Below, piece by piece: positions 28,662 through 64,000 of a DNA stretch of 64,000 nt (its first letter is position 1; each line of letters begins with the position of its first letter). The position numbers were made by a program, and so were the translations under genes. Under the pieces are notes generated by a model. The model was not told where the DNA came from, did not search any database, and worked only from the letters and a program-made list of their open reading frames with translations. Source of the DNA: Spirochaetota bacterium (lineage in GTDB: Bacteria > Spirochaetota > UBA4802 > JAFGDQ01); the NCBI GenBank assembly GCA_034190085.1, contig JAXHTS010000064.1, positions 1-64,000 of the forward strand, written 5' to 3'.

Positions 28662-31184
28662 ATGACATCAAAGATGGGATCTATCAAGGATGTATTACAA
28701 AAGAAAAGTATTGATGAGTTAGAAAAGAGCAGAGAATGGTGGTGGGTAGCTGAGAAGAAGAGGTCAGAGCGCCTTGATTATTTGAGAAAAGCAGTTTGGA
28801 AGAAGGGGAAAAAGGGAGGGATGTATGAGCCTGGCGTAAAAATTGATCTTGAAAGGCCCCTCCTCTTTACAGAAAGTTGGAAGGAAAATGAAAATGATCC
28901 AATTATGATGAAACGAGCAAAGGCCCTAGAGCATGTGCTTGACAATATTACTATACACATAACAGATCATGCTCAAATTGTGGGTTATCTTGGAAGCCTA
29001 CCTAATACACTCATGTGGTATGTTGATATAGCAAGTTTCCTGAATGAAGAGATATATAATGACCCGATGGTAATACCTGAACCTCAGGAGGAATCGCTTA
29101 AGACTATGGCTGAACTTAACAACTACTGGGGACCTAGAGATAATCTGGGAAAGGTCTTCAGGGAGTTATCAAGCGAAGAAGCTGTTAAGATGATGAGCAC
29201 TGTTATAATGTGGGGTCTTCCTGTTGGGGGCAGTTTTGGGTATTCAGGCAAGGACTATGAGTACATGATGACGGGCAAGAGGGGATTTGAAGACATTATA
29301 GATGAGATACAGGAAAGAATAGATGAAGCAGAGGAGAAGATTGATGGGAATCCAGGGCCGGACATTCTTCCACTCTATGACAAGCTAGCCAATTGGGAGG
29401 CTATGCAGATCATCTTAGAGGCATGCATCAGATACGCAAAGAGATATTCGAGACTTGCACGGATAATAGCAGAAAATTTTGAATCTGATCCTAAAAGGAA
29501 GGAGGAACTCCTGCGCATTGCTGAGTCCTGCGAGAGGGTGCCTGACAAACCGCCAAGGACTCTTCAGGAATCGTTGCAGTATGATCATTTTATACAGGTA
29601 TGGGCAAGATTTGAGGATGGCGAAGCCGCATGGCCATGCCGGCCGGATTATTACCACTGGCCTTGCTATAACAGGGATGTTAATATAGAGAAGAATATTA
29701 CAAAGGAAGAGGCGATTGACCTTATAGGAGAGTTTATGATCAGGTCTTATGAATTAGCCGGGTATACCCCAAGCTTTGCCTCTGAGGCCCTTCAGGGCAT
29801 ACAGGCCACCTGGGTATGGACCCTTGGCGGAGTAAACCAGGATGGCACTGACGCATGCAATGATCTCACCATTGCCTTTATGCAGGCTGCAAGGCTTGTG
29901 CGTGTTGCGAATCCTACCTTTGGGTTCAGATGGCATCCAAAGGTAAAGGATGATGTATGGAGAGAAGTATTCGAATGCATCAGGCATGGATTGGGCTATC
30001 CAAGCATACGAAATGATCCAATACTTATTGCAAATGGTATGCATTGGTTTGGTCATCCCCTTGAAGAGATGAGAACATGGGTCCATCAGGCCTGCATGTC
30101 TCCCTGCCCCACGACAAAGCATGGCGCACAGCCTGCTCGCATGGCCTCAACAACATTAAATACTTCAAAGATGGTTGAATATGCTCTGCACAATGGATTC
30201 GATAATTGCATCAAGATGCAGATGGGTCCTAAGACGGGTGATGCGCGAAAGTTTACAGATTTTGAAGAGCTTTTCGAGGCATGGGTAAATCAGATGGAAT
30301 GGTTGATGAACTTTGGCACAAGGATAGTAAACCGAGGCAGAGTGAAAAGTCCTGAGTATTATGGTCGCCCCTTTCTCTCTGCTATTTCAGAAGCGTCTGT
30401 TGAGACCGGTCTTGACAGACTAGAGCCATCGCTCGAAAGGGGCAATGCATGGGTTACCTTCTTTACTTGGGTGGAGAATGTTGACAGTCTGGCAGCGGTA
30501 AAGAAATTGGTTTTTGATGATAAGAAATACACTATGGATGAACTTATTACTGCCCTTGAGACTAATTGGGAGGGTAAGGAGGATATGAGGTTGGATTTTG
30601 TGAAGAACGCTCCTAAGTGGGGTAATGATGATGATTATGTGGATGATATAATGGTACGCTGTTTAAAAGAGGTTGCGAGGCACTCCCATGAGATAAGGTG
30701 TCCATCGGGCAATACATGGCCTGCATTGCCTGAGAATGTAAGTGGTAATATCCATTTTTCTACTATGGTTCACGCGCTTCCCAATGGAAGGAAGTTGGGA
30801 GATGCTCTATACGATGGCGGTATTTCACCAGGCCCTGGTCTTGATAAAAAAGGACCTACAGCAGTGCTGAAGTCATGTGGGAAGATAGATCATATAAGCG
30901 ATGGAAGGGCATTCCTCTTGAATCAACGCTTATCTCCTACCCAGCTTTCTGGCGAGAAGGGCTATCAGTTATGGAAGTCTTACATGAAAACATGGGCTGA
31001 CCTTGGAATAGACCATGTACAGTTCAATATGGTAGATGATGCGACACTTCGAGCAGCGCAGAAGGACCCTGAGCAGTATCAGGAGGTGATCGTTCGTGTG
31101 GCCGGTTACAGCGCGCATTTTGTGGACATCAGCCGCAAAACACAGGATAATATTATACAGAGAACAGTTCAAGGTCTGGGATAG
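28662..31184 (+). CDS. GRE1: glycyl radical enzyme, alkyl/benzylsuccinate synthase alpha-subunit-like
   Basis: 840 aa, in the pyruvate formate-lyase-like superfamily and near the length of benzylsuccinate synthase (BssA, about 860). The glycyl radical loop RVAGYS places Gly at 815. The thiyl Cys is Cys478 in ACMSPCP, and Arg493 stands at the place of the BssA arginine that holds fumarate. Further BssA-like blocks are ARIIAENFESDPKRKEELL, GGVNQDGTDACNDLT, APKWGNDDDY and DHVQFNMVDDATLRAAQKDP. It would add a C-H substrate to fumarate in the cytoplasm after activation by a radical-SAM enzyme. Subtype markers are WGLP (184-187), the longer ASTTLN loop and NAW (Ala596). The ATG at 28662 follows GGAGGT; a TTG at 28647 is unlikely. 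The substrate is unknown. Other names: pyruvate formate-lyase family protein. Confidence 0.85.
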   Translation: MTSKMGSIKDVLQKKSIDELEKSREWWWVAEKKRSERLDYLRKAVWKKGKKGGMYEPGVKIDLERPLLFTESWKENENDPIMMKRAKALEHVLDNITIHITDHAQIVGYLGSLPNTLMWYVDIASFLNEEIYNDPMVIPEPQEESLKTMAELNNYWGPRDNLGKVFRELSSEEAVKMMSTVIMWGLPVGGSFGYSGKDYEYMMTGKRGFEDIIDEIQERIDEAEEKIDGNPGPDILPLYDKLANWEAMQIILEACIRYAKRYSRLARIIAENFESDPKRKEELLRIAESCERVPDKPPRTLQESLQYDHFIQVWARFEDGEAAWPCRPDYYHWPCYNRDVNIEKNITKEEAIDLIGEFMIRSYELAGYTPSFASEALQGIQATWVWTLGGVNQDGTDACNDLTIAFMQAARLVRVANPTFGFRWHPKVKDDVWREVFECIRHGLGYPSIRNDPILIANGMHWFGHPLEEMRTWVHQACMSPCPTTKHGAQPARMASTTLNTSKMVEYALHNGFDNCIKMQMGPKTGDARKFTDFEELFEAWVNQMEWLMNFGTRIVNRGRVKSPEYYGRPFLSAISEASVETGLDRLEPSLERGNAWVTFFTWVENVDSLAAVKKLVFDDKKYTMDELITALETNWEGKEDMRLDFVKNAPKWGNDDDYVDDIMVRCLKEVARHSHEIRCPSGNTWPALPENVSGNIHFSTMVHALPNGRKLGDALYDGGISPGPGLDKKGPTAVLKSCGKIDHISDGRAFLLNQRLSPTQLSGEKGYQLWKSYMKTWADLGIDHVQFNMVDDATLRAAQKDPEQYQEVIVRVAGYSAHFVDISRKTQDNIIQRTVQGLG

Positions 31185-31198
31185 GAAACGATTATTTA

Positions 31199-31223
31199 AA
31201 AGGATTCAAATAATAAGTCCTTT
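31199..31223 (+). terminator. Weak hairpin after GRE1
   Basis: AAAGGATT pairs with AAGTCCTTT with one bulge, followed by ATTATAAGG. It is a weak structure just past the GRE1 stop. Confidence 0.3.
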
Positions 31224-31320
31224 ATTATAAGGCTGTATTATAAGTTGATAATATATCTTAACGCATTATACAAGATGTTAAGGTTAATAAATACAAAACA
31301 CAATTAAAGGAGGCAAAGAA

Positions 31321-33840
31321 ATGCCACAAGAAGAACAAAAATTAAGTAGTCCGTCTGAAAAAAAGAGTATAGACGAGTTAGAAAAAAACAAAGAATGGTG
31401 GTGGGTGGCGGAAAAAAAGAGATCCAAGCGTCTTGATTATTTGAGAAAAGCGGTCTGGAAGAAGGGGAAAAAGGGAGGTATGTATGAGCCTGGACTCAAG
31501 GTAGATCTTGAGAGACCATTGCTCTTCACAGAGAATTGGAAGGAGAATGAAAATGATCCAATTATGATGAGAAGGGCAAAGGCTTTATCGCATGTCTTTG
31601 ATAATATAACTATCTTTATCACAGATAATGCCCAGATTATGGGTTATTTGGGGAGCCTTCCCAACACAATCATGTGGTATAATGATGCTGCGAGTCTCAT
31701 CAATGAGGAGATATACAATGATCCAATAATAATACCTGAACCTGAGGAAGAATCGCTAAAGACTATGTCAGATTTAAACAACTACTGGAACACAAGGGAT
31801 AGTATGGGAAAGGTGTTAAGGGATTTATCAGCAGAGGAAGCCATAAAGTTTATGACCATGGTCCTGATGTGGAGCGCTCCATTTGGAGGCAGTTTTGGTT
31901 ATTCAGGTAAGGACTATGAGTACATGATGACAGGTAAGAGGGGATTTGAGGACATCATTGATGAGATACAGGATCGAATAGATGAGGCTGAGGAAAAAAT
32001 AGACGGCAATCCAGGACCGGATATTCTTCCGCTCTATGATAAACTATCCAACTGGGAGGCAATGCAGATCATTTTGGAGGCTTGCATAAGATATGCCAAG
32101 AGATACTCAAGGCTTGCTAGAATAATAGCAGAAAATTTTGAATCGGATCCAAAGCGCAAAGAGGAGCTTTTACAGGTAGCTGAAACATGCGAGCGAGTAC
32201 CTGGGAAAGCCCCAAAGACATTTCAGGATTCACTCCAGTATGACTTCTTTATACAGACATGGGCTAGGTTGGAGGACTTGGAAGGGGCATGGCCGGCTCG
32301 TCCTGATTACTATCACTGGCCATACTATAATAAGGATGTCAACATAGAGAAGAATATAACAAAGGATGAAGCGATTGATCTTATTGGGGAGTTTCTAATT
32401 CGTGCATATGAGACTGGACATTATCTTCCACAAGCTGGATCAGAGGCGCTTCAGGGTATTCAGGCTACCTGGGTGTGGACCATTGGCGGAGTCAATCAGG
32501 ATGGCACAGATGCATGCAATGATCTTACTACAGCCTTATTGCAAGCGGCTAGGCTCGTACGAGTGGCAAATCCTACCTTTGGATTCAGATGGCATCCAAA
32601 AGTAAAGGATGAAATGATGAGAGAGGTATTCGAGTGCATCAGACAAGGATTAGGTTATCCAAGTCTACGAAATGACCCAATACTCATATCAAATGGAATG
32701 AATTGGCATGGTCATCCTTTAGAGGAGATGAGGACATGGGTTCACCAGGCTTGCATGTCTCCATGCCCAACAACAAAGCATGGTGTTCAACCCTGCAGAA
32801 TGGCCGTTACGCTGAATTGTGCTAAGATGGTTGAATATGCCCTGCATAATGGATTTGATCATGTAGTAAATATGCAGGTTGGTCCTGAATCTGGAGATGC
32901 CAGGAAGTTTACCGACTTTGAGGAGCTTTTTCAGGCATGGGTCAAACAGATGGAGTGGTTGTGCAATTTTGGAGTGCGGATAATGAACCATGGAAGGGTA
33001 AGGAGTCCTCAAAATTATGGACGACCCTTTCTATCATCCATTACTGAGAGATCAATAGACATGGGTGTTGATGTAATGGAGCCAGATAAAGAGAATGGTA
33101 ATTGCTGGATGACCTTTTTCACATGGGCAGAGAATGCGGATAGTTTAACAGCAGTAAAAAAGTTGGTCTTTGATGATAAAAAATACACCATGGATGAGCT
33201 TATTACTGCCCTTGAGACTAACTGGGAAGACAAAGAGGATATGCGTCTGGATTTTGTGAAGAACGCTCCCAAGTGGGGTAATGATGATGATTATGCGGAT
33301 GAGATGATGGTACGGTGCCTTAGAGAGGTAGCAAGACATTCACGAGAAATAAGATGCCCATCTGGCAACACATGGCCAGCGCTGCCGGAGAATGTAAGCG
33401 GAAACATACATTTTTCGAATCTAGTCCATGCCCTTCCCAATGGAAGGAAGTTGGGGGATGCGCTATACGATGGCGGGATTTCACCTGGTCCTGGATTGGA
33501 TAAGAAGGGGCCCACAGCAGTATTGAAGTCATGTAGCAAGATTGACCATATCAATGATGGAAGAGCATTTCTATTAAACCAGCGTTTATCTCCGACTCAG
33601 CTTTCAGGAGAAAAGGGTTATCAGCTATGGAAATCCTACATGAGGACATGGGCTGACCTTGGAATAGACCATGTACAGTTCAATATGGTAGACGATGCGA
33701 CACTTCGAGCAGCGCAGAAGGACCCTGAGCAATATCAGGAAGTGATCGTTCGTGTGGCAGGCTATAGCGCTCACTTTGTGGATATCAGCCGTAAGACGCA
33801 GGATAATATTATACAGAGAACCATTCATGGGTTGGGTTAG
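31321..33840 (+). CDS. GRE2: alkyl/benzylsuccinate synthase alpha-subunit-like glycyl radical enzyme
   Basis: 839 aa. Catalytic Cys478 (ACMSPCP), fumarate-type Arg493 (VQPCRM) and Gly814 (RVAGYS) are all present. It belongs to the second active-site subtype: WSAP in place of WGLP, RDLSAEE in place of RELSSEE, one residue fewer after the Arg (AVTLN), and NCW in place of NAW. Elsewhere it resembles its neighbours GRE1, 3 and 4 (IDEAEE, CIRYAK, RVANP). The variable pocket segment reads AYETGHYLPQAGSEALQGI. AAAGGAGG precedes the ATG. A good terminator follows, and the 136-base upstream gap could hold its own promoter. Confidence 0.85.
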   Translation: MPQEEQKLSSPSEKKSIDELEKNKEWWWVAEKKRSKRLDYLRKAVWKKGKKGGMYEPGLKVDLERPLLFTENWKENENDPIMMRRAKALSHVFDNITIFITDNAQIMGYLGSLPNTIMWYNDAASLINEEIYNDPIIIPEPEEESLKTMSDLNNYWNTRDSMGKVLRDLSAEEAIKFMTMVLMWSAPFGGSFGYSGKDYEYMMTGKRGFEDIIDEIQDRIDEAEEKIDGNPGPDILPLYDKLSNWEAMQIILEACIRYAKRYSRLARIIAENFESDPKRKEELLQVAETCERVPGKAPKTFQDSLQYDFFIQTWARLEDLEGAWPARPDYYHWPYYNKDVNIEKNITKDEAIDLIGEFLIRAYETGHYLPQAGSEALQGIQATWVWTIGGVNQDGTDACNDLTTALLQAARLVRVANPTFGFRWHPKVKDEMMREVFECIRQGLGYPSLRNDPILISNGMNWHGHPLEEMRTWVHQACMSPCPTTKHGVQPCRMAVTLNCAKMVEYALHNGFDHVVNMQVGPESGDARKFTDFEELFQAWVKQMEWLCNFGVRIMNHGRVRSPQNYGRPFLSSITERSIDMGVDVMEPDKENGNCWMTFFTWAENADSLTAVKKLVFDDKKYTMDELITALETNWEDKEDMRLDFVKNAPKWGNDDDYADEMMVRCLREVARHSREIRCPSGNTWPALPENVSGNIHFSNLVHALPNGRKLGDALYDGGISPGPGLDKKGPTAVLKSCSKIDHINDGRAFLLNQRLSPTQLSGEKGYQLWKSYMRTWADLGIDHVQFNMVDDATLRAAQKDPEQYQEVIVRVAGYSAHFVDISRKTQDNIIQRTIHGLG

Positions 33841-34029: not shown

Positions 34030-36552
34030 ATGACACAAGATGAACAAAGATTAAATATTGCGCCAGATAAAAAAAGTATAGATCAATTGGAGAAAAGCAG
34101 AGAATGGTGGTGGGTAGCTGAAAAGAAAAGGTCTAAAAAACTGGACTACTTGAGAAAGGCAGTGTGGAAGAAGGGCAAAAAAGGAGGGATGTATGAACCA
34201 GGCGTAAAGATTGATCTTGAAAGGCCCCTCCTCTTTACAGAAAGTTGGAAGGAAAATGAAAATGATCCAATTATGATGAAACGAGCAAAGGCCCTAGAGC
34301 ATGTGCTTAACAACATTACTATACATATAACGGATCATGCTCAGATTGTGGGCTATCTTGGGAGTCTTCCCAATACTCTCATGTGGTATGTGGATATTGC
34401 AAGCTTTCTCAATGAAGAAATATACAATGACCCAATGGTAATCCCAGAGCCCCAGGAGGGATCCCTCAAGACTATGGCTGAACTCAACAACTACTGGGGG
34501 CCAAGAGATAATCTCGGGAAGGTCTTCAGAGAACTCTCCAGTGAGGAGGCGGTTAAGGCCATGAGCACTGTTCTTATGTGGGGTCTCCCTATTGGAGGGA
34601 GCTTTGGATATTCAGGCAAAGACTATGAGTATATGATGACGGGCAAGAGGGGATTTGAGGACATTATTGATGAGATACAGGAGAGGATAGACGAAGCAGA
34701 GGAGAAGATTGACGGCAATCCTGGTCCGGATATTTTGCCACTATATGACAGGTTATCCAATTGGGAGGCTATGCAGGTTATCTTAGAGGCATGTATTAAA
34801 TATGCTAATAGGTATTCGAGGCTGGCAAGAATAATAGCGGAAAACTTTGAATCAGATCCCAAAAGGAAAGAGGAACTACTTCGCATTGCTGAGACATGTG
34901 AAAGGGTACCGTCCAAACCTCCAAGGAGTTTTCAGGAATCGTTGCAGTATGATCATTTTATTCAAGTGTGGAGCAGGTTTGAAGATGGAGAAGGAGCCTG
35001 GCCATGCAGACCTGACTATTATCACTGGCCCTGCTATAACAGGGATGTTAACATTGAAAAAAATATTTCCAGGGATGAAGCGATCGATCTTATAGGCGAA
35101 TTTATGATTCGTTCAGCTGAATTGGCGGGTTACATGCCATCAGTAGGAGCCGAAGCGCTACAAGGAATACAGGCCACTTGGGTATGGACTCTTGGTGGAG
35201 TGAATAAGGACGGCACTGACGCATGCAATGATCTCACCATTGCCTTTATGCAAGCAGCAAGATTGGTGCGCGTGGCAAATCCTACCTTTGGATTCAGATG
35301 GCATCCCCAGGTGTCCGATGAGGTATGGAGAGAGGTATTTGAGTGCATACGACATGGTTTGGGTTATCCAAGCATACGAAATGATCCAGTACTAATAGCA
35401 AACGGAATGCATTGGTTTGGTCATCCTCTGGAGGAGATGAGGACATGGGTACACCAGGCCTGCATGTCTCCCTGTCCTGCTACGAAGCATGGCGCACAAC
35501 CTGCCCGCATGGCTTCCACAACACTTAACACATCAAAAATGGTTGAATATGCTCTTCACAATGGATTTGATCAGTGCATTAAACTGCAGATGGGGCCCAA
35601 GACGGGTGACGCAAGGACCTTTACAGACTTTGAAGATCTTTTCCAGGCATGGATAAAACAGATGGAGTGGTTGATGAATTTTGGCACAAGGATAGTAAAC
35701 CGCGGTAGGATGAAGAGTCCTGAGTTTTACGGACGTCCCTTTCTCTCTGCTATTTCTGAAGCCTCGGTTGAGACGGGTCTTGACAGGCTTGAGCCATCGT
35801 TAGAGAGGGGCAATGCATGGGTTACCTTCTTTACATGGGTGGAGAATGCAGATAGCTTGGCGGCGGTAAAAAAACTCGTATTTGATGAAAAAAAGTACTC
35901 GATGAAAAATCTAATAGACGCTTTGGAGAGCAATTGGGAAGGAAGAGAGAAGATGCGTTTGGATTTCGTGAAGAACGCTCCAAAGTGGGGAAATGATGAC
36001 GATTATGTTGACGAAATCATGATAAGATGCCTGAAAGAGGTGGCAAGGCATTCACATGAGATAAAGTGTACATCCGGCAACAACTGGCCGGCATTGCCTG
36101 AAAATGTCAGCGGAAATATTCACTTTGCACCTATGGTTCATTCACTACCCAATGGCAGAAAACTGGGTGATGCGCTATACGATGGCGGTATTTCACCAGG
36201 CCCAGGTCTTGATAAAAAAGGACCTACAGCAGTGCTGAAGTCATGCGGAAAGATAGATCACATAAGCGATGGAAGGGCATTTCTGTTGAATCAGCGGCTT
36301 TCGCCAACTCAGCTTTCTGGCGAGAAGGGTTATCAGTTGTGGAAATCATACATGAAGACATGGGCTGATCTTGGAATAGATCATGTACAGTTTAATATGG
36401 TTGATGATGCTACGCTAAGGGCAGCGCAGAAGGATCCTGAGCAGTATCAGGAGGTGATCGTACGTGTGGCTGGTTACAGCGCGCATTTTGTAGACATCAG
36501 CCGCAAAACACAGGATAACATTATACAGAGAACAATTCAAGGACTCGGTTAA
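34030..36552 (+). CDS. GRE3: alkyl/benzylsuccinate synthase alpha-subunit-like glycyl radical enzyme
   Basis: 840 aa with Cys478 (ACMSPCP), Arg493 (AQPARM) and Gly815. First subtype: WGLP, RELSSEE, ASTTLN, NAW. It is closest to GRE1, and a 99-base stretch near the 5' end (34210-34308) is identical to GRE1 28842-28940 while the bases on both sides differ at silent positions, suggesting gene conversion. Its pocket segment reads SAELAGYMPSVGAEALQGI. It differs locally near 633, with KYSMKNLIDALESNWEG. GGGAGGT is its ribosome site. A second strong Shine-Dalgarno-like AAGGAGGTGA lies 59 bases upstream with no reading frame of its own. Confidence 0.85.
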   Translation: MTQDEQRLNIAPDKKSIDQLEKSREWWWVAEKKRSKKLDYLRKAVWKKGKKGGMYEPGVKIDLERPLLFTESWKENENDPIMMKRAKALEHVLNNITIHITDHAQIVGYLGSLPNTLMWYVDIASFLNEEIYNDPMVIPEPQEGSLKTMAELNNYWGPRDNLGKVFRELSSEEAVKAMSTVLMWGLPIGGSFGYSGKDYEYMMTGKRGFEDIIDEIQERIDEAEEKIDGNPGPDILPLYDRLSNWEAMQVILEACIKYANRYSRLARIIAENFESDPKRKEELLRIAETCERVPSKPPRSFQESLQYDHFIQVWSRFEDGEGAWPCRPDYYHWPCYNRDVNIEKNISRDEAIDLIGEFMIRSAELAGYMPSVGAEALQGIQATWVWTLGGVNKDGTDACNDLTIAFMQAARLVRVANPTFGFRWHPQVSDEVWREVFECIRHGLGYPSIRNDPVLIANGMHWFGHPLEEMRTWVHQACMSPCPATKHGAQPARMASTTLNTSKMVEYALHNGFDQCIKLQMGPKTGDARTFTDFEDLFQAWIKQMEWLMNFGTRIVNRGRMKSPEFYGRPFLSAISEASVETGLDRLEPSLERGNAWVTFFTWVENADSLAAVKKLVFDEKKYSMKNLIDALESNWEGREKMRLDFVKNAPKWGNDDDYVDEIMIRCLKEVARHSHEIKCTSGNNWPALPENVSGNIHFAPMVHSLPNGRKLGDALYDGGISPGPGLDKKGPTAVLKSCGKIDHISDGRAFLLNQRLSPTQLSGEKGYQLWKSYMKTWADLGIDHVQFNMVDDATLRAAQKDPEQYQEVIVRVAGYSAHFVDISRKTQDNIIQRTIQGLG

Positions 36553-36553
36553 G

Positions 36554-36679: not shown

Positions 36680-39199
36680 ATGTCAGATAAAGCAGGGAAT
36701 ACTAGTGTAACACAAAAAAAGAGTATTGAAGAGTTGGAGCAGGATAAAGAATGGTGGTGGGTAGCTGAAAGAAAGAGATCCAAAAGACTGGACTACCTAA
36801 GAAAAGCGGCTTGGAAGAAGGGAAGAAAGGGCGGGATGTATGAACCTGGCGTGAAGATTGATCTTGAAAGGCCGCAATTGTTTACAGAGGCTTGGAGAGA
36901 AAACGAGAATGAACCTCTTTCTATGAGAAGGGCTAATTCATTAGCACATATCCTAGATAACATCACCATATTTATTACTGACAGCTCACAAATTATGGGT
37001 TATCTGGGAAGTCTTCCGAACACCCTTATGTGGAATTGCGAGCTGGCAAGCTTTGTAAACGAAGAGATTTATAATGATCCGGTTGTAATTCCTGAGCCTG
37101 AAGATGAATCGCTTAAGATTATGGCTGAAATAAATAATTATTGGGGTTCAAGGGACAGTCTGGGCAAGGTGTTTAGAGAGTTATCCAGCGAAGAAGCTGT
37201 GAAGATGATGTCTAGCGTAATAATGTGGGGGGTACCTATCGGAGGTAGCTTCGGGTATGCTGGCAAGGATTATGAGTATCTCATGACTGGCGAGAGGGGA
37301 TTTGAAGACATAATCGATGAGATACAGGAAAGAATAGATGAGGCAGAGGAGAAGATAGACGGCAATCCAAGGCCGGATATTCTACCACTCTATGACAGGC
37401 TATCCAATTGGGAGGCAATGCAGATTGCGCTTGAGGCATGCATAAGATATGCAAAGAGATATTCCAGACTTGCCCGAATAATAGCCGAGAACTTCGAATC
37501 TGATCCAAAGCGAAAAGAAGAACTGCTCAAGATTGCTGAGTGCTGTGAGAGGGTGCCAGGCAAACCCCCAAATACCTTTCAGGAATCGTTGCAGTATGAT
37601 CACTTTATTCAAGTATGGAGCAGGTTTGAGGATGGGGAAGGAGCTTGGCCGGCCCGTCCGGATTACTACCATTGGCGATGCTATGATAGAGATGTTAACA
37701 TAGAGAAAAATATTACAAATGACGAAGCGATCGATTTTATAGGAGAATTTTTAATTCGCAGTTATGAATTGGCGGGTTATATGCCTAGATTTGGGGCTGA
37801 GGCGCTTCAGGGCATACAGGCTACCTGGGTATGGACCCTTGGTGGAGTAAATCAGGACGGCACTGACGCATGCAATGACCTCACCATTGCCTTTTTACAG
37901 GCTGCAAGGCTTGTGCGTGTGGCAAATCCTACCTTTGGATTCAGATGGCACCCCAAGGTACAGGATGAGGTGTGGAGAGAGGTATTCGAGTGCATCAGAC
38001 ACGGATTGGGTTATCCCAGCATACGGAATGATCCGGTTTTGATTGCTAATGGTATGCACTGGTTCGGTCATCCCTTGGAGGAAATGAGGACATGGGTTCA
38101 CCAGGCCTGCATGTCGCCTTGCCCCACAACAAAGCACGGCTCTCAGCCATGCCGAATGGCCTCAACAACACTTAATTGTTCCAAGATGGTTGAATATGCC
38201 CTGCATAATGGATTCGATAATTGCATCAAGATGCAGATGGGACCCAAGACTGGAGACGCGAGAAACTTTACAGACTTTGAAGAGCTTTTCCAGGCATGGG
38301 TAAAACAGATGGAGTGGATGACGAACTTCGGGACACGGATTATTAACCGTGCTCGCTATCAAAGTCCAAAGGCTTTCACACGACCCTTTCTTTCGGCCAT
38401 CTCTGAAGTTTCCATTGAGAGTGGTCTCGACAGGCTTGAGCCATCACTTGAGAGAGGGAATGCATGGATCACATTCTTTACATGGGTTGAGAATGCTGAT
38501 AGTCTCGCTGCAGTAAAAAAAATGGTATTTGATGAGAAGAAATATACTATGGATGAGTTGGTTGAAGCTCTAGAAAACAATTGGGAAGGCAAAGAGGAAA
38601 TGAGATTGGACTTTGTAAGGAATGCGCCTAAGTGGGGCAATGACGATGATTATGTTGATGAAATAATGGTTCGCTGTTTAAAGGAGGTGGCGAGACATTC
38701 ACATGAGATAAAGTGTCCATCCGGCAACAACTGGCCGGCATTGCCAGAGAATGTGAGTGGGAATATTCACTTTGCTCCTATGGTTCATGCCCTGCCAAAT
38801 GGAAGGAAGCTGGGGGATGCGCTATACGACGGGGGCATATCACCAGGTCCCGGACTGGATAAGAAGGGGCCTACAGCGGTATTGAAGTCATGCGGAAAGA
38901 TAGATCATATAAGCGACGGAAGGGCATTCCTCTTGAATCAGCGTTTATCACCAACCCAATTGGCTGGAGAGAAGGGTTATCAGTTATGGAAATCCTACAT
39001 GAAGACCTGGGCTGACCTGGGATTAGATCACGTTCAATTTAATATGGTTGATGATGCTACGCTAAGGGCAGCACAGAAGGATCCTGAGCAATATCAGGAG
39101 GTGATCGTTCGTGTGGCCGGTTACAGCGCGCATTTTGTGGACATCAGCCGCAAGACGCAGGATAATATCATACAGAGGACAATTCAGGGATTAGGATAA
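36680..39199 (+). CDS. GRE4: alkyl/benzylsuccinate synthase alpha-subunit-like glycyl radical enzyme
   Basis: 839 aa; its N-terminal tail is one residue shorter than in the others, so the catalytic residues are Cys477, Arg492 and Gly814. First subtype: WGVP, RELSSEE, ASTTLN, NAW. Its pocket segment reads SYELAGYMPRFGAEALQGI, and the normally conserved NRGRxKSPE is changed to NRARYQSPKAFTRP, the most divergent such loop in the set. An extra GTGGAGGATC lies about 65 bases before the start in addition to the AGGAGGT ribosome site. It is the last gene of the left GRE block and converges with rmlB. Confidence 0.85.
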   Translation: MSDKAGNTSVTQKKSIEELEQDKEWWWVAERKRSKRLDYLRKAAWKKGRKGGMYEPGVKIDLERPQLFTEAWRENENEPLSMRRANSLAHILDNITIFITDSSQIMGYLGSLPNTLMWNCELASFVNEEIYNDPVVIPEPEDESLKIMAEINNYWGSRDSLGKVFRELSSEEAVKMMSSVIMWGVPIGGSFGYAGKDYEYLMTGERGFEDIIDEIQERIDEAEEKIDGNPRPDILPLYDRLSNWEAMQIALEACIRYAKRYSRLARIIAENFESDPKRKEELLKIAECCERVPGKPPNTFQESLQYDHFIQVWSRFEDGEGAWPARPDYYHWRCYDRDVNIEKNITNDEAIDFIGEFLIRSYELAGYMPRFGAEALQGIQATWVWTLGGVNQDGTDACNDLTIAFLQAARLVRVANPTFGFRWHPKVQDEVWREVFECIRHGLGYPSIRNDPVLIANGMHWFGHPLEEMRTWVHQACMSPCPTTKHGSQPCRMASTTLNCSKMVEYALHNGFDNCIKMQMGPKTGDARNFTDFEELFQAWVKQMEWMTNFGTRIINRARYQSPKAFTRPFLSAISEVSIESGLDRLEPSLERGNAWITFFTWVENADSLAAVKKMVFDEKKYTMDELVEALENNWEGKEEMRLDFVRNAPKWGNDDDYVDEIMVRCLKEVARHSHEIKCPSGNNWPALPENVSGNIHFAPMVHALPNGRKLGDALYDGGISPGPGLDKKGPTAVLKSCGKIDHISDGRAFLLNQRLSPTQLAGEKGYQLWKSYMKTWADLGLDHVQFNMVDDATLRAAQKDPEQYQEVIVRVAGYSAHFVDISRKTQDNIIQRTIQGLG

Positions 39200-40361: not shown

Positions 40362-40444
40362 GCCTTTATATTCCCTTATGCTTTATTTTACAATTAACAC
40401 CGGTTTTCCTAAGGAAGTGAATCCCGATTGAGTCCCTTCCTTTA

Positions 40445-41323: not shown

Positions 41324-41381
41324 AATTATTCATTCCTAATAATACAAAGGATGGTAAAATAAACTATCAAAATCAATATTC

Positions 41382-42302: not shown

Positions 42303-42476
42303 TTAAACGCTTCCTAAAAAAATAATGACCTTTAGTTGATATTTCTTTGAAGCAATCAAAAATGATACAATAATAAGGGATGGATACACCTATAGAATAC
42401 TACATTAGGATGATAATATAAAGAAAATTATCATTCTATTCGCCCACCCTCTTCTTATTTTCAAAGGAGGTCATTA

Positions 42477-43907: not shown

Positions 43908-44222
43908 TCCTTTATCTTCCTTTTTTATTTTATATAACTTTTGACGACTAATATCAGAAAGTAATTGTTTTGTCAAAGTATAATCAGCTAAAAAGGAACA
44001 AATTGAACAATTTCCAAACCAGTCTCCAATTGTTGAGTACCTGCTTTATACTTATTCTCCTATAGCGGGGTGAAGGGTATCATAATAATTAATATCATCT
44101 TTCCAACTAGGATCAGGAAGAATTTTAATCAGTTTACTACCGATAAAATGGTTGCCAAACTGAAGGTATTGTAAATCATCCTATAATTAAGATAATTTAC
44201 GATAGGGGATAACCTACATCCT

Positions 44223-48574: not shown

Positions 48575-49828
48575 ATGAATAGGAAAAAACAGATATTCAA
48601 AGGAATAAAGGTCGCTGACTTCTCCTGGGTCGGCGTTGGTCCTCAGGTAGTGAGGGAACTTGCTGAGCATGGAGCCAAGGTTATACGTGTTGAATGTCAT
48701 CGCTATCCGGATACCCTACGGACTATTTTTCCTTTTAAGGATTTCAAACCTGGAATAGACCGAAGCGCATTTGGGGCTTGCTATAATACAAATAAATATG
48801 GCATGAGTCTTGATTTGAATATGCCCAAGGGACAAGAGGTTGCTAAAAGACTGGTTGAATGGGCTGATGTTATTACTGATAGCATGACTCCAGGGACAAT
48901 GGCCAAATGGGGGCTGGATTATGAAAACTGCCAAAAAATAAAACCAGACATTATATACTACTCTACTTGCCAAATGGGTCAAATCGGGCCTTATGCCAAA
49001 TTCGGTGGCTATGGGATGTTCGGCACCTCATACGCGGGTTTCTGTCATCTTCTGGGTTGGCCCGATAGATCACCCTTACCACTCTTTAACAACTACACCG
49101 ATTTCATTTCACCCTGGTATTTATGTTTGACTCTAATATTAGCCCTTCTTAGGCGAATGAAAACGGGTAAGGGGATGTATCTTGATCAATCTCAGGTGGA
49201 GGTTGGAGCTCAATTTATCGGACAGATTCTTTTGGATTATACAGTCAACGGTAGGATCCAAAATCGCTTGGGCAATCGAGATAACCAAATGGCTCCACAT
49301 GGTATATATCGTTGCAAGGGTGAAAACCGCTGGATAGCTATAGCAGTAATGAACAACAAACAATGGAACGCCTTTTGCAACATCACTGACAATACTGCAT
49401 TAGCCAATGATCCAAGATATACTACCATCCTTCAGAGAAAGCAAAACGAGGATGAGCTTGATAATATCATAAGTAGGTGGACCTGCAATTATACTCCTGA
49501 ACAAGTGATGGAAATGATGCAAAAAGAAGGAATACCCGCAGGTATAGTAGAGACTGCTGAGGATTTGTTCAAGGACCCACAACTGAAACACCGCAAACAC
49601 TTCCGCTTTATGAAACATAGAGTTATTGGAAATATGGCGTTTAATTCTCCAGCCTATCAGCTTTCCAAAACCCCGAATCATATCTGGAAAGTATCCCCTT
49701 GCCTAGGCGAGGATAATGACTATGTGTATAGGGAGATACTGGGATATAGCAAAAAAGAGATAGCTGAAATGCTGGCAGAGGGAGTAATCACGACCAAAGA
49801 AGATGTCCCCGCTGTACTTAAGGAATAG
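48575..49828 (+). CDS. CaiB/BaiF (family III) CoA-transferase, BbsF-like catalytic subunit
   Basis: 417 aa. It has the family III fold (VRELAEHGAKVIRVE, NTNKYGMSLDLNMP, TCQMGQIGPYAKF, KTGKGMYLDQSQVE), and the presumed catalytic Asp is Asp176 in NNYTDFISP. It starts ten bases after the first subunit with AGGAGGAGG as ribosome site, so the two are made together. It would transfer CoA from succinyl-CoA to a substituted succinate. GRE5 follows after 250 bases with its own promoter-like region. Confidence 0.78.
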   Translation: MNRKKQIFKGIKVADFSWVGVGPQVVRELAEHGAKVIRVECHRYPDTLRTIFPFKDFKPGIDRSAFGACYNTNKYGMSLDLNMPKGQEVAKRLVEWADVITDSMTPGTMAKWGLDYENCQKIKPDIIYYSTCQMGQIGPYAKFGGYGMFGTSYAGFCHLLGWPDRSPLPLFNNYTDFISPWYLCLTLILALLRRMKTGKGMYLDQSQVEVGAQFIGQILLDYTVNGRIQNRLGNRDNQMAPHGIYRCKGENRWIAIAVMNNKQWNAFCNITDNTALANDPRYTTILQRKQNEDELDNIISRWTCNYTPEQVMEMMQKEGIPAGIVETAEDLFKDPQLKHRKHFRFMKHRVIGNMAFNSPAYQLSKTPNHIWKVSPCLGEDNDYVYREILGYSKKEIAEMLAEGVITTKEDVPAVLKE

Positions 49829-58099: not shown

Positions 58100-60622
58100 C
58101 TAGCCCAAACCTTGTATTGTCCTCTGTATGATGTTATCCTGCGTCTTGCGGCTGATATCCACAAAATGCGCGCTGTAGCCTGCCACGCGAACGATCACCT
58201 CCTGATACTGCTCGGGATCCTTCTGTGCTGCCCTGAGGGTCGCATCATCTATCATGTTGAACTGAACGTGATCCAATCCCAGATCAGCCCAGGTCTTCAT
58301 GTAGGACTTCCATAATTGATACCCCTTCTCTCCGGAGAGCTGAGCTGGTGATAACCTTTGATTCAACAAAAATGACCTGCCATCGCTTACATGATCTATC
58401 TTTCCGCAAGATTTCAGCACCGCAGTAGGTCCTTTTTTATCGAGCCCTGGACCTGGCGATATACCACCATCATACAGCGCATCTCCCAATCTTCTACCAT
58501 TGGGAAGTGCATGCACCATATTAGCAAAATGAATATTCCCACTCACATTCTCAGGCAATGCAGGCCATGTGTTACCAGATGGACATCTTACCTCCCTCGA
58601 ATGCCTAGCCACCTCCCTAAGACATCTTACCATAATCTCATCCACATAATCTTCGTCATTGCCCCACTTGGGAGCATTCTTCACAAAGTCCATGCGCATC
58701 CCTTCCTTGCCTTCCCAATCGTTCTCCAATGCCTCAACAAGCTCTTTCATCGTATACTTCTTCTCATCAAAGATTAATCTCTTTACTGCCGCTAAGCTAT
58801 CAGCATTCTCAGTCCATGTGAAGAAGGTAATCCAAGCATTGCCTCTCTCTATCGATGGGTCAACTGCGTCAAGACCACTCTCGATACTCTTCTCTGATAT
58901 AGCCGAGAGAAATGGTCGGCCATAATATTCTGGACTCTTCACTCTACCACGATTTACTATTCGTGTTGCGAAATTCACAATCCACTCCATCTGCTTTACC
59001 CATGCCTGAAACAGTTCTTCAAAATCTGCAAATTTCCTGGCATCCCCTGTTTTGGGTCCCATCTGCATATTTATACATCTGTCAAAACCATTATGAAGAG
59101 CATACTCAATCATCTTAGATGTATTCAACGTAGCTGTTGCCATTCTAGCTGGTTGAAAACCATGCTTCGTAGCAGGGCATGGCGACATGCAGGCCTGGTG
59201 TACCCATGTTCTCATCTCCTCCAAGGGATGGCTGTGCCAGTGCATACCATTGGCAATTAACACCGGATCATTGCGTATGCTGGGATACCCCAATCCATGC
59301 CGTATGCACTCGAATACCTCCCTCATCACCTCATCTGACACCTGTGGATGCCATCTGAATCCAAAGGTAGGCCCTGATACACGCACTAGCCTTGCAGCCT
59401 GCAAGAGTGCTATGGTCAGGTCATTGCATGCATCGCTTCCATCGAGTTTAACTCCGCCTAAAGTCCATATCCATGTACCGGCTATACCCTGAACCCCCTC
59501 AGACGCGAATCGTGGAGCATATCCTCCCACTTCATGGCAGCGAATCATAAACTCACCAACAAGATCAAGCGCCTCCTCCTTGGTTAGACATTTATCAATG
59601 TTTACATCTTGATTATAATATGGCCAATGATAATAATCAGGTCGAGATGGCCATGCCCCCTCTAAATCCTCAAATCTGGTCCATATTTGTATAAAATGAT
59701 CATATTGCAATGACTCCTGAAAAGTCCTCGGTAGTTTATTAGGCACCCTCTTACAGGTCTCCTCTATCCTTAAGAGTTCTTCCCTACGCCTTGGATCGGA
59801 TTCAAAATTCTCAGCAACAATCTTTGCTAACCTAGCATATCTTTTCGACATCCTGATGCAGGCCTCAAGTATAATCTGCATGGCCTCCCAATTGGTCAAC
59901 CTGTCATAGAGCGGAAGGATGTCCGGCCCAGGATTGCCGTCAATCCTTTCCTCAGCATCATCTATTTTTTCCTGTATCTCATCTATTATGTCTTCAAATG
60001 CCCTCTTCCCTGTCATAAAATATTCATAGTCCTTACCGGCATAACCGAAACTACCACCAATAGGAAGCCCCCACATAACAACAGTACTCATGAGTTTAAC
60101 AGCCTCTTCACTGGAGAGTTCCCTAAACACCTTCCCAAGATTATCTCTTGGCCCCCAGTAGTTGTTGAGTTCAGCCATAGTCTCAAGCGATTCATCCTGA
60201 GGCTCAGGTATAATAACTGGGTCATTATATATCTCCTCATTAAGGAAGCTTGCTATGTCCGGATGCCACATAAGAGTATTTGGAAGACTCCCATAATATC
60301 CAACAAGCTGAGCATGATCAGTAATAAAGATTGTTATGTTATCAAAAACGTACGAAAGCGCCTTTGCCCTTCTCATAATTATCGGCTCATTTTCGTTTTC
60401 TTTCCAGGCCTCTGTGAATAAGAGCGGTCTTTCAAGATCAACCTTGAGCCCTGGCTCATACATTCCCCCCTTTTTCCCTTTCTTCCAAACTGCTTTCCTG
60501 AGATAATCGAGTCTTTCGGATCTCTTCTTCTCTGCTACCCACCACCATTCCCTGCTCTTCTCAAGTTCCTTTAAACTTTTCTTTTTAAGTACTTCAGTAA
60601 CTCTAAGTGCTTCTGGTTCCAT
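58100..60622 (-). CDS. GRE7: alkyl/benzylsuccinate synthase alpha-subunit-like glycyl radical enzyme
   Basis: 840 aa with Cys478 (ACMSPCPATKHG), Arg493 (FQPARM) and Gly815. First subtype (WGLP, RELSSEE, NAW), but the loop after the Arg reads ATATLN rather than ASTTLN. Two otherwise fixed sites differ: HWHSHP for HWHGHP and RVSGP for RVSNP. The pocket segment reads CHEVGGYAPRFASEGVQGI. GGGAGGT precedes the ATG. A second, perfect AAAGGAGGTGA lies about 77 bases upstream with no frame of its own. Only 103 bases separate it from GRE8 and no terminator is seen between, so the two may share a transcript. Confidence 0.85.
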   Translation of the reverse strand: MEPEALRVTEVLKKKSLKELEKSREWWWVAEKKRSERLDYLRKAVWKKGKKGGMYEPGLKVDLERPLLFTEAWKENENEPIIMRRAKALSYVFDNITIFITDHAQLVGYYGSLPNTLMWHPDIASFLNEEIYNDPVIIPEPQDESLETMAELNNYWGPRDNLGKVFRELSSEEAVKLMSTVVMWGLPIGGSFGYAGKDYEYFMTGKRAFEDIIDEIQEKIDDAEERIDGNPGPDILPLYDRLTNWEAMQIILEACIRMSKRYARLAKIVAENFESDPRRREELLRIEETCKRVPNKLPRTFQESLQYDHFIQIWTRFEDLEGAWPSRPDYYHWPYYNQDVNIDKCLTKEEALDLVGEFMIRCHEVGGYAPRFASEGVQGIAGTWIWTLGGVKLDGSDACNDLTIALLQAARLVRVSGPTFGFRWHPQVSDEVMREVFECIRHGLGYPSIRNDPVLIANGMHWHSHPLEEMRTWVHQACMSPCPATKHGFQPARMATATLNTSKMIEYALHNGFDRCINMQMGPKTGDARKFADFEELFQAWVKQMEWIVNFATRIVNRGRVKSPEYYGRPFLSAISEKSIESGLDAVDPSIERGNAWITFFTWTENADSLAAVKRLIFDEKKYTMKELVEALENDWEGKEGMRMDFVKNAPKWGNDEDYVDEIMVRCLREVARHSREVRCPSGNTWPALPENVSGNIHFANMVHALPNGRRLGDALYDGGISPGPGLDKKGPTAVLKSCGKIDHVSDGRSFLLNQRLSPAQLSGEKGYQLWKSYMKTWADLGLDHVQFNMIDDATLRAAQKDPEQYQEVIVRVAGYSAHFVDISRKTQDNIIQRTIQGLG

Positions 60623-60725: not shown

Positions 60726-63248
60726 CTATCCTAACCCTTGTATTGTCCTCTGTATAATATTATCCTGCGTTTTGCGGCTGATGTCCACAAAATGCGCGCT
60801 GTAACCAGCCACACGAACAATAACCTCCTGATACTGCTCTGGGTCCTTCTGCGCTGCACGAAGGGTCGCGTCATCTACCATATTGAATTGCACATGATCC
60901 AATCCCAAATCAGCCCAGGTCTTCATGTAGGACTTCCATAACTGATACCCCTTCTCCCCTGAGAGCTGAGTTGGAGAGAGTCTCTGATTCAACAGGAATG
61001 CCCTTCCATCACTCACATGATCTATCTTTCCGCAAGATTTCAGCACTGCTGTAGGCCCCCTTTTGTCTAATCCCGGCCCCGGTGATATGCCGCCATCGTA
61101 CAGGGCATCTCCCAACTTTCTTCCATTGGGTAAGGCATGTACCATATTTGCAAAATGTATATTTCCGCTCACGTTCTCAGGTAACGCAGGCCAATTGTTG
61201 CCAGAGGGACACTTAATCTCTTTGGAATGCCTGGCCACCTCTCTCAGGCATCGTACCATTATTTCATCAGCATTATCATCATCATTTCCCCATTTAGGAC
61301 CATTTTTTACAAAATCCAATCTCATCACCTCTTTGCCATCCCAGTTAGCCTCCAAAGCATCCAACAATTCATCCATTGTGTATTTCTTTTCATCAAATAC
61401 CAATTTCTTTACCGCTGATAGACTATCTGCATTCTCTACCCATGTAAAGAATGTAATCCATGCATTACCCCTCTCTATTGATGGTTCTAATGCATCCAAT
61501 CCACTCTCAACACATCTTTCGGAAATTGCGGAAAGATATGGACGACTATAAAATTCGGGACTCTTCACTCGACCACGGTTAACTACCCGAGTTCCAAAGT
61601 TTGTCATCCACTCCATCTGCTTTACCCATGCCTGGAAAAGCTCTTCAAAATCCTTAAACGTCCTTGCATCACCCGTCTTAGGCCCCATCTGCATCTTGAT
61701 GCAATTATCGAATCCATTATGCAGGGCATATTCAACCATTTTTGAACAATTTAGGGTTGTCGATGCCATGCGACAGGGTTGATAGCCATGCTTAGTAGTC
61801 GGAGCTGGAGACATGCAGGCCTGATGTACCCATGTTCTCATCTCTTCCAAGGGATGTCCATGCCAGTGCATACCATTGGCAATCAACACCGGATCGTTCC
61901 GTATGCTGGGATACCCCAATCCATGCCGTATGCACTCGAATACCTCTCTCCATACCTCATCCTGTACCTGTGGATGCCACCTGAATCCAAAAGTGGGATT
62001 TGATACACGAACAAGCCTTGCAGCTTGAAGAAATGCAATTGTCAAATCATTGCATGCATCAGTGCCATCCTTATTTACTCCACCAATTGTCCATACATAT
62101 GTACCAGGTATTCCTTGAATACCCTCTGCACCAATTCTTGGGAGATAATAACCCATCTCATTGGAGCGAATCAAAAACTCTCCCACAAGATCAAGCGCTT
62201 CCTCATAAGATATACTTTTCTCTCTGTTTACGTCCTTATCATAATAGGACCAATGATAGTAATCAGGACGGGCAGGCCATGCCCCATCCAAATCTTCAAA
62301 TCTGGAAAATATTTGTATAAAGTGATCATACTGTAGCGATTCCTGAAAGGACCCTGGGGGGCTCTCCGGCACATTCTGACAGGTTTCTGCGATCCTAAGT
62401 AGTTCTTCTTTACGCTTGGGATCGGATTCGAAGTTCTCTGCTATTAGCTGCGCTAATCTGGAATATCTCTTAGCCATCCTAATGCAGGCCTCAAGTATAA
62501 TCTGCATAGCCTCCCAATTGGCTAGCTTATCATAGAGCGGAAGAATATCCGGTCCTGGATTGCCATCTATTTTATCCTCAGCATCATCTATTATTCCCTG
62601 TATCTCATCTATGATATTCCCAAATGCCCTCGTCCCACTCATTAAATATTCATAATCTTTTCCTGCATATCCGAAGCTGCCACCTACTGGTATGCCCCAC
62701 AGAAGGACGGTGCTCATAAGTTTCACCGCCTCTTCACTGGATAATTCTCGAAATACCTTGCCCAGACTATCCCTTGAACCCCAATAATTGTTGATTTCAG
62801 CCATTGTTTTGAGCGATTCATTTTCTGGCTCAGGTATTATAACAGGATCGCTGTATATCTCCTCATTGATAAAACTTGCTATTTCTGGATACCAATAGAT
62901 AGTGTTTGGAAGGCTGCCCAAATATCCAACAAGTTGAGCTTGATCTGTAATGAAGATAGTAATATTATCCAAAACATGCGCTAAAGACTTGGCTCTCCTC
63001 ATCATTATTGGATCATTCTCGTTCTCCTTCCAGGCTTCAGTAAAAAGAAGCGGCCTCTCAAGATCGACCTTTATACCCGGTTCATACATTCCTCCCTTTC
63101 TCCCCTTTTTCCATACTGCTTTTCTCAGATAATCCAGTCGCTTGGACCTCTTCTTCTCAGCAACCCACCACCATTCTTTATCCCTCTCTAACTCATCAAT
63201 GCTCTTCCCATGAGATGCATCACTAATACTTTGATTCTTTTGTACCAT
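60726..63248 (-). CDS. GRE8: alkyl/benzylsuccinate synthase alpha-subunit-like glycyl radical enzyme
   Basis: 840 aa with Cys478, Arg493 (YQPCRM) and Gly815. First subtype: WGIP, RELSSEE, ASTTLN, NAW. It is the only complete copy in which the thiyl motif reads ACMSPAP, losing the second Cys (position 482). Its pocket segment reads SNEMGYYLPRIGAEGIQGI, and PGTYVWT replaces the ATWVWT of GRE1-5. GGGAGG is its ribosome site. Its upstream region contains the terminator of GRE9. Confidence 0.85.
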   Translation of the reverse strand: MVQKNQSISDASHGKSIDELERDKEWWWVAEKKRSKRLDYLRKAVWKKGRKGGMYEPGIKVDLERPLLFTEAWKENENDPIMMRRAKSLAHVLDNITIFITDQAQLVGYLGSLPNTIYWYPEIASFINEEIYSDPVIIPEPENESLKTMAEINNYWGSRDSLGKVFRELSSEEAVKLMSTVLLWGIPVGGSFGYAGKDYEYLMSGTRAFGNIIDEIQGIIDDAEDKIDGNPGPDILPLYDKLANWEAMQIILEACIRMAKRYSRLAQLIAENFESDPKRKEELLRIAETCQNVPESPPGSFQESLQYDHFIQIFSRFEDLDGAWPARPDYYHWSYYDKDVNREKSISYEEALDLVGEFLIRSNEMGYYLPRIGAEGIQGIPGTYVWTIGGVNKDGTDACNDLTIAFLQAARLVRVSNPTFGFRWHPQVQDEVWREVFECIRHGLGYPSIRNDPVLIANGMHWHGHPLEEMRTWVHQACMSPAPTTKHGYQPCRMASTTLNCSKMVEYALHNGFDNCIKMQMGPKTGDARTFKDFEELFQAWVKQMEWMTNFGTRVVNRGRVKSPEFYSRPYLSAISERCVESGLDALEPSIERGNAWITFFTWVENADSLSAVKKLVFDEKKYTMDELLDALEANWDGKEVMRLDFVKNGPKWGNDDDNADEIMVRCLREVARHSKEIKCPSGNNWPALPENVSGNIHFANMVHALPNGRKLGDALYDGGISPGPGLDKRGPTAVLKSCGKIDHVSDGRAFLLNQRLSPTQLSGEKGYQLWKSYMKTWADLGLDHVQFNMVDDATLRAAQKDPEQYQEVIVRVAGYSAHFVDISRKTQDNIIQRTIQGLG

Positions 63249-63293
63249 TTAACTAACCTCCCATTAGTGTAATATTTAATAAATCTAATCCCT

Positions 63294-63333
63294 ATAAAAA
63301 AACCCCCACAATAACTTATAGTAATGTGAGGGT
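63294..63333 (-). terminator. Rho-independent terminator of GRE9
   Basis: On the minus strand ACCCTCACA pairs with TGTGGGGGT (one G-U pair) around a 14-base loop and is followed at once by seven T. It lies about 180 bases after the GRE9 stop and before the GRE8 start. Confidence 0.75.
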
Positions 63334-63508
63334 ATATTGTCTTACATTTCTAACATTCACTACCTCATAATAGTCAAAGCTGCTCATTGTCCTTGGCAAC
63401 ACACTGCAGAGTATTGACTTAAATGAATAGTAATTAACTTAAAGGTATTGGTAGTCAGCTAATTTTATTATAGATATGTATATTAGATTCAAATCGTCTC
63501 CCTGACAT

Positions 63509-64000
63509 CTATCCAATACCCTGAATCGTCCTCTGTATAATATTATCCTGCGTTTTGCGGCTTATGTCCACAAAGTGAGCGCTGTAACCTGCCACGCGAA
63601 CGATCACCTCCTGATACTGCTCTGGATCCTTCTGCGCTGCACGTAGAGTGGCATCATCTACCATATTAAACTGTACATGATCAATTCCCAGATCAGCCCA
63701 TGTCTTCATGTAGGACTTCCATAACTGATACCCCTTCTCTCCGGAGAGCTGAGTGGGAGAAAGTCTCTGATTCAACAGGAATGCCCTTCCATCGCTCACA
63801 TGATCTATCTTTCCGCAAGATTTCAGCACTGCTGTAGGGCCCTTTTTATCCAGTCCTGGACCTGGCGACACGCCACCATCGTATAACGCATCTCCCAGTT
63901 TCCTACCATTTGGCAAAGCATGTACCATAGGAGCGAAGTGAATATTGCCGCTCACATTCTCGGGCAGGGCCGGCCATGTATTTCCCGATGGACAACGTAT
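63509..64000 (-). CDS. GRE9: alkyl/benzylsuccinate synthase alpha-subunit-like glycyl radical enzyme, C-terminal part
   Basis: Partial: the frame runs through the window edge (reading RCPSGNTWPALPENVSGNIH before the apparent internal ATG), and about 164 C-terminal residues are visible. They include DDGVSPGPG-type GGVSPGPGLDKKGPT, DHVQFNMVDDATLRAAQ and the RVAGYS radical loop, ending IQGIG. It has NIHFAPMVHA, a feature of the first subtype. The catalytic Cys lies outside the window. Confidence 0.85.
   Translation of the reverse strand: MRCPSGNTWPALPENVSGNIHFAPMVHALPNGRKLGDALYDGGVSPGPGLDKKGPTAVLKSCGKIDHVSDGRAFLLNQRLSPTQLSGEKGYQLWKSYMKTWADLGIDHVQFNMVDDATLRAAQKDPEQYQEVIVRVAGYSAHFVDISRKTQDNIIQRTIQGIG

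Follow-up and report, generated by a model that had tools for sequence, protein, structure and literature searches.

What kind of enzyme is encoded by a long run of paralogous glycyl radical enzyme (GRE) genes in a Spirochaetota bacterium, and why should one genome keep so many of them? The question is raised by the first 64,000 nucleotides (hereafter the window) of contig JAXHTS010000064.1 (C64), which belongs to a draft metagenome-assembled genome (MAG, GCA_034190085.1). An original prediction, made from the letters of the window alone, had read these genes as nine fumarate-addition-type GREs. The analysis presented here points to catalytic alpha subunits of (1-methylalkyl)succinate synthase (MASS, also named AssA), acquired from outside and multiplied into three lineages with about 30 genes in all, which would be served in trans by an accessory set and may act on differing hydrocarbons. 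To this reading as a whole we assign a probability of roughly 0.85.

The list of open reading frames (ORFs) agrees with the predicted layout of eight complete GRE genes (839-845 codons) and the 3' end of a ninth, arranged in three blocks. Likewise, the predicted thiyl Cys in a CMSP motif, the Arg at Cys+15 and the RVAGYS glycyl radical loop (here RVAGYSAH) are present in every copy. All window copies match PF02901 with more than 410 bits, which excludes a chance match. Nine loci do touch the window, but nine is an underestimate of the copy number. Inspection of the sequence past position 64000 showed that copy 9 is completed at position 66031 and that four further GRE genes lie beyond the window. 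Contig C64 (121,382 bp, with the window as bases 1-64000) thus carries 13 GRE genes between 28.6 and 78.0 kb, a span of about 49 kb.

The complete MAG comprises 4,273,953 bases (4.27 Mb) on 86 contigs, and is 96% complete with a contamination estimate of 1.9%. GRE genes were counted with an alignment profile and PF02901 in addition to a single-protein query. PF02901 gave 33 matches genome-wide, corresponding to about 32 loci since one gene on C66 is split and accounts for two of the matches. Intact ORFs number 28 (829-864 amino acids), and none of them was recognised as a GRE of the pyruvate formate-lyase (PFL) or dehydratase type. Damaged or partial loci are the split C66 copy, a frameshifted copy on C52 (127 + 728 amino acids), a copy on C18 truncated where its contig stops, and a copy on C76 with internal stop codons. 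The intact genes and the frameshifted C52 copy together form a set of 29 long copies. They fall into lineage A (18 intact, on C64, C67, C66 and C79), lineage B (7 intact and 1 frameshifted, on C52, C79, C56 and C43) and lineage C (3 intact, with a CMAP motif, on C45 and C4). Copies of lineage A are 79-95% identical to one another, and members of A and B are interleaved on C79. CMSP, Arg at Cys+15 and RVAGYSAH occur in every lineage A and B copy that reaches those sites.

When compared with sequences in the PDB, the copy chosen for modelling (copy 5 in Table 1) scored 1319 bits with MasD (9o8u_A), 501 bits with BssA/TutD and at most 349 bits with dehydratases and lyases. The window copies are 64-67% identical to MasD, 35-37% to BssA and about 30% to other GREs; across the genome, identity to MasD is 63-67% for long copies in lineages A and B, and the values are 33-37% to BssA and 28-33% to other GREs. 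In a tree of 108 rows, which was built without NmsA, HbsA, IbsA and Desulfoglaeba alkanexedens, all copies of the genome fall in the AssA/MasD group together with Desulfatibacillum, Desulfosarcina, Smithella and the MasD of solved structure. BssA branches outside this group and the dehydratases are likewise apart. The copies are thus not placed with decarboxylases or dehydratases, an outcome that would have refuted the original prediction, and the lower likelihood given there to pyruvate formate-lyase, choline lyase or arylacetate decarboxylase functions is upheld. NCBIfam models for dehydratases and lyases matched at about 240-450 bits, compared to curated cut-offs of 678-1150 bits, and none of the equivalog cut-offs for choline lyase, hydroxyproline dehydratase, sulfopropanediol dehydratase, HPAD or PFL was reached. 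An AlphaFold2 model of copy 5 had a mean predicted local distance difference test score (pLDDT) of 85.4, with values below 50 from residue 812, i.e. at the C-terminal end that holds the Gly loop. A structure search with this model returned 9o8u_A as top match (template modelling (TM) score 0.94, E-value 7e-92), followed by benzylsuccinate synthase (BSS; TM 0.87-0.88). These results support the assignment of the window copies as putative catalytic alpha subunits of MASS. Of the predicted hydrocarbon- or aryl-succinate synthase function, the fumarate-addition type therefore stands, albeit in its alkane (MasD) form instead of the BssA form.

In the MASS structure Cys477, Arg492, Glu690, Tyr194 and Thr598 surround fumarate, Trp185 and Phe600 are located at the alkane site and its gate, and Phe192 is directed towards the far end of the cavity (PMC12358834). 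The thiyl Cys, the radical Gly, Arg492, Tyr194 and Phe600 are invariant in the 29 long copies, and Thr598 and Glu690 are found in all but one of them (C52_150616, with Ser and Gln). Trp185 is conserved in all 26 copies of lineages A and B and absent from lineage C, which has no member in the window. The BSS pocket residues Asn615, Ile617 and Gln707 are not present, and Thr, Phe and Glu occupy their positions. The fumarate Arg is absent from GDH, IslA and HypD; its placement in the pocket of the copies is deduced from alignment to 9O8U and from the overall similarity in fold. Variation is seen elsewhere. Position 192 is Phe in 18 of 18 lineage A copies, Ala or Gly (with one gap) in lineage B, and Phe in lineage C. 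The most variable positions of lineage A include 178, 181, 187, 366, 368, 371 and 488, several of which adjoin the gate, with exchanges among e.g. Leu, Ala, Val, Phe and Ile. This pattern, noticed post hoc, suggests that the cavities may have been tuned.

The three lineage C genes (C45:2010-4499, C4:25730-28228 and C4:31274-33769; loci L039 and L040) are all intact and 84-88% identical to each other, and show 45-46% identity to MasD. CMAP replaces CMSP, Ala, Pro or Gly is found at the Trp185 gate position, and each copy is near genes for DctP-type proteins. Relatives occur in other MAGs (L113, L114). The substrate of lineage C may differ from n-alkanes.

MASS has four subunits (PMC12358834). 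Homologues of MasB (120 amino acids, E-value 5e-17 to 9o8u_B), MasC (54 amino acids, 7e-12 to 9o8u_C) and MasE (79 amino acids, 1.4e-4 to 9o8u_D) are all encoded in the genome, with five genes for MasB (beta), one for MasC (gamma) and two for MasE (delta) plus weaker matches. Two GRE activases score above the TIGR02494 cut-off. An operon on the minus strand of C35, from 45826 down to 43145 (L133:13145-15826), consists of MasE, both activases and MasC, i.e. the same gene order that directly precedes masD elsewhere (L068, L085, L091). A PF02901 search found no GRE gene on C35, and small subunits of the MasB, MasC and MasE types were not found in the 64-kb window, showing that the alpha genes are detached from the activation operon. 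Accessory genes and activase are thus not joined in one operon with a catalytic gene here; we take the masD-free operon as a variant of organisation and not as a defining trait of the enzyme. With one gamma, two delta, five beta and two activase genes for about 30 alpha genes, we infer from the gene numbers in this draft genome that the accessory proteins are shared in trans. A gene at C79:9974-11182 (L034:9974-11182) was considered as a third activase and rejected, as no glycyl radical activase model reached its cut-off; it encodes a radical S-adenosylmethionine (SAM) protein with an N-terminal ferredoxin-like part, and lies on a contig with GRE genes.

Ratios of nonsynonymous to synonymous substitution (dN/dS) had medians of 0.063, 0.063 and 0.050 (about 0.06), and dS was near or past saturation for most copy pairs, the closest pair having a dS of 0.42. 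The copies therefore appear to be old and each under strong constraint, which speaks against both recent amplification and duplication during assembly. Lineages A, B and C each have outside neighbours in the tree. Three outside sequences (L043, L044, L092) fall inside or beside lineage A, so that A may not have a single origin within this genome. Among 46 genomes of the order that were available, including the present one, no other genome has this GRE type, and the one other match (G001) reaches 399 bits, a score in the range of other GREs. On the other hand, RadA, encoded about 20 kb upstream of the array on C64, is 66% identical to that of a same-family genome, 56-64% to other genomes of the order that were tested, and 43-45% to AssA-bearing genomes of other groups, whereas the GREs are up to 78% identical to copies in AssA-bearing genomes of other groups. 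The vertical signal of RadA indicates that the contig belongs to its assigned lineage and is not obviously misbinned. Together with the absence of the enzyme type from the rest of the order, it suggests that the enzymes were acquired from outside and then multiplied. The Dehalococcoidia MAG CSMAG_2522 (Chloroflexota; L049, L116), which carries relatives of lineage A as well as of lineage B, is possibly a donor or a fellow recipient, but could also be misbinned. No gene of this GRE type was found in plasmid records, and no 16S rRNA gene was found in the MAG.

By strong homology, the copies would be expected to add alkanes to fumarate. A radical SAM activase would place the radical on the Gly of RVAGYS, from where it would move to the CMSP Cys, which in turn would take hydrogen from the n-alkane, and the alkyl radical would add to fumarate held by Arg492 and Glu690 (MASS numbering). 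The products would be activated with coenzyme A (CoA), rearranged by one of five mutases and then oxidised. In evolutionary terms, the type would have been gained from outside the lineage and amplified to about 30 genes, with one accessory set (MasC, MasE and the activases) serving many alpha subunits in trans. The age of the copies, the purifying selection on each of them and the variation beside gate and cavity suggest that they differ in the hydrocarbons accepted. A more far-reaching proposal is a combinatorial system, in which some 30 tuned alpha subunits are exchanged on a shared chassis of one gamma, two delta, a few beta subunits and two activases. We hold this proposal tentatively, at a little under even odds, and found no description of such alpha-swapping in the literature surveyed.

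Several points weigh against the favoured reading. Alkane activity is assigned to the copies from homology, and three masD genes appear broken. A draft assembly such as this one may lack additional genes for MasC or activases, and proteins of 54-79 amino acids are easily overlooked. Alpha genes might also outnumber those for the other subunits because many of them are silent, and the variability of the cavity positions was spotted after the fact. Related to this is the alternative that the enzymes are of the proposed type but functionally redundant, kept for dosage or for expression under different conditions and not for different hydrocarbons. The invariant catalytic and fumarate residues, the tandem order with short gaps as in dosage arrays, and the identity of position 192 throughout lineage A would all fit. 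However, dosage arrays are usually near-identical, while these copies are old (dS mostly near or past saturation), only 79-95% identical within A and without recent homogenisation. Moreover, the end of the alkane cavity is not the same in lineages A and B, and neither accessory subunits nor activases were amplified. We therefore regard redundancy as rather unlikely. An artefact, in which masD genes of several organisms were binned into one MAG or tandem copies were made by the assembler, might be suspected from the 86 contigs, the several copies at contig ends and the three broken genes, but is hard to reconcile with 13 copies on a single 121-kb contig that encodes a RadA of 66% identity to that of a same-family genome, with the interleaving of A and B on C79 and with the contamination estimate of 1.9%. 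Furthermore, the copies differ at most synonymous sites and so are not assembler duplicates. We consider such an artefact very improbable.

The remaining alternatives concern the reaction itself. Synthases of aryl- or benzylsuccinate (BssA/NmsA type), with methylated aromatics as substrates, share the superfamily, CMSP and the Arg at Cys+15 with the copies, and the CoA-transferase pair in the window presumably resembles the bbsEF arrangement. Nevertheless, identity is 36% to BssA and 65% to MasD, the residues Tyr194, Thr598, Phe600, Glu690 and Trp185 are those of MASS and not of BSS, subunits of the MasB and MasE types are present, and so are alkane-pathway mutases from the masD-linked family. 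BssA-type function was rejected on the pocket residues, and there is little chance that this type as a whole explains the array. Least credible are GREs of the dehydratase, lyase or PFL type: NCBIfam models for these do match, at about 240-450 bits, but far under their cut-offs of 678-1150 bits and with identities of 29-33%, the structures of MasD and BssA score better, and the fumarate Arg found here is lacking in GDH, IslA and HypD.

Table 1. GRE genes and selected neighbouring genes in the window (positions 1-64000 of contig C64).
Feature	Position	Strand	Remarks
DctP-type TRAP substrate-binding protein	24802..25839	+	PF03480
masD-like copy 1	28647..31184	+	845 aa; Cys483, RVAGYS 817; lineage A
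masD-like copy 2	31321..33840	+	839 aa; lineage A; 92% to sister C64 copy 67681-70194
masD-like copy 3	34030..36552	+	840 aa; lineage A; 92% to copy 1
masD-like copy 4	36680..39199	+	839 aa; lineage A
class III CoA-transferase, 1st of pair	47266..48564	+	PF02515; NCBIfam below cut-offs
class III CoA-transferase, 2nd of pair	48575..49828	+	PF02515; NCBIfam below cut-offs
masD-like copy 5	50080..52599	+	839 aa; Cys478, Arg493, Gly814; lineage A; copy modelled
masD-like copy 6	52731..55250	+	839 aa; lineage A
masD-like copy 7	58100..60622	-	840 aa; lineage A
masD-like copy 8	60726..63248	-	840 aa; lineage A
masD-like copy 9, 3' end	63509..64000	-	full on contig 63509-66031, 840 aa; lineage A
aa, amino acids; TRAP, tripartite ATP-independent periplasmic transporter.

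Genes for subsequent steps of an alkane pathway are found in the window as well as on other contigs. The pair of CoA-transferases directly precedes copies 5 and 6, and possibly serves in CoA activation of alkylsuccinates. C55 encodes a CoA ligase that resembles those located close to masD in Desulfatibacillum and Smithella loci. Among eight genes of the methylmalonyl-CoA mutase type in the genome, five (two on C55, two on C9 and one on C83) are members of a family that accompanies masD elsewhere, i.e. the downstream rearrangement step is expanded too. Four of the five form two tandem pairs (80-85% identity), and the fifth stands alone (L164:10849-14600, L165:4250-7975, L168:7202-8965). About ten genes for DctP-type TRAP binding proteins are situated in the GRE regions of the genome (including the window gene at 24802-25839, L034:8180-9223, L037:361-1395 and L040), with a possible role in dicarboxylate uptake; relatives in the DctP family adjoin masD in Smithella. 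No dsrA was found in the genome, making a fermentative or syntrophic lifestyle, or the use of another electron acceptor, likely.

Other parts of the window were noted in passing. A hydrophobic membrane protein of 547 amino acids (45000-46643), with no match in Pfam or the PDB, is encoded upstream of the CoA-transferase pair. Between the first and second GRE blocks (39291-43976) lies an apparently unrelated set of dTDP-sugar genes (glucose-1-phosphate nucleotidyltransferase, 4,6-dehydratase, 3,5-epimerase and an RmlD-like reductase) together with a cation-efflux gene. A PrkA-DUF444-SpoVR cluster at 967-5586 has relatives of about 62% identity in two AssA-bearing MAGs. PrkA, the only member of the cluster that was tested, was absent from two same-family genomes searched; it was therefore dropped as a placement marker and RadA was used instead. 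The cluster may also have been acquired.

Alkanes, a major constituent of crude oil, are hard to attack when oxygen is absent. To our knowledge only one structure of this enzyme kind has been solved, and about 30 diverged enzymes would constitute a natural library for finding the residues that govern alkane chain length, branching and the site of attack. They also extend fumarate addition to a lineage in which it is missing from the sampled relatives. If the combinatorial proposal is true, one organism could cover much of the alkane range of crude oil by swapping catalytic subunits. There is also a consequence for environmental surveys. In a survey of masD, identities below 96% were taken to indicate different species and below 86% different genera (PMC4703814). 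Applied to the 29 long copies found in this one genome, the same cut-offs would yield 29 species, 21-22 genera and 2-3 families, and the reported richness of alkane degraders is possibly inflated where such multi-copy genomes occur.

How does the array compare with known systems? Published AssA genomes have two copies, with two clusters in D. alkanexedens and two genes in strain AK-01 (PMC7180275), and a search of the literature, with subscription papers mostly outside its coverage, returned only two-copy reports of this kind. The suggestion that the array represents a new scale of diversification is hence borne out and was even too modest, with 28 intact genes here versus two in those genomes. 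In 50 public genomes with the type, found by two peptide patterns among at most 80 loci and scored on up to 19 candidates per genome, apparently the best ones, at least about nine full copies and three fragments were seen in CSMAG_2994, at least about seven copies in DeMMO5_3 and at least five in PL23a_bin.76; higher copy numbers may exist elsewhere. CSMAG_2994, a Deltaproteobacteria MAG (G077), resembles the present genome in having many diverged AssA-type copies, but has under half as many and in another part of the tree, and its loci (L066, L067, L073, L074) constitute a second, independent expansion.

The AssA proteins of Desulfatibacillum alkenivorans and D. alkanexedens belong to the same group as the copies described here (the latter species not being in our tree), and their operons hold masE, activase and mutase genes. 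In contrast to the present arrays, these species have two copies each, every copy in its own full cluster, and the two copies of D. alkanexedens differ by 3.1% (PMC7180275). Fumarate-addition operons of atribacteria also have a TRAP dicarboxylate DctP gene beside the fumarate-addition genes, albeit with DctP, DctQ and DctM in complete operons with a deep-branching FaeA (PMC6776118), whereas here DctP genes, the only ones of the three that were searched for, occur near scattered masD genes. BssA/TutD shares superfamily, CMSP, the fumarate Arg and the fold (TM 0.87-0.88) with the copies, but differs in its 36% identity, in other residues of the fumarate and substrate pocket and in having no delta subunit. 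A close likeness is to MasBCDE of Azoarcus HxN1 (PDB 9O8U), in the 64-67% identity of the alpha subunits, in the fold and in the residues of the fumarate and alkane sites, and homologues of its beta, gamma and delta subunits, as well as activases, are also present in this genome. However, HxN1 has one mas cluster (PMC12358834), while the genome described here has about 30 alpha genes, in tandem arrays and on many contigs, apart from the operon that encodes MasE, two activases and MasC.

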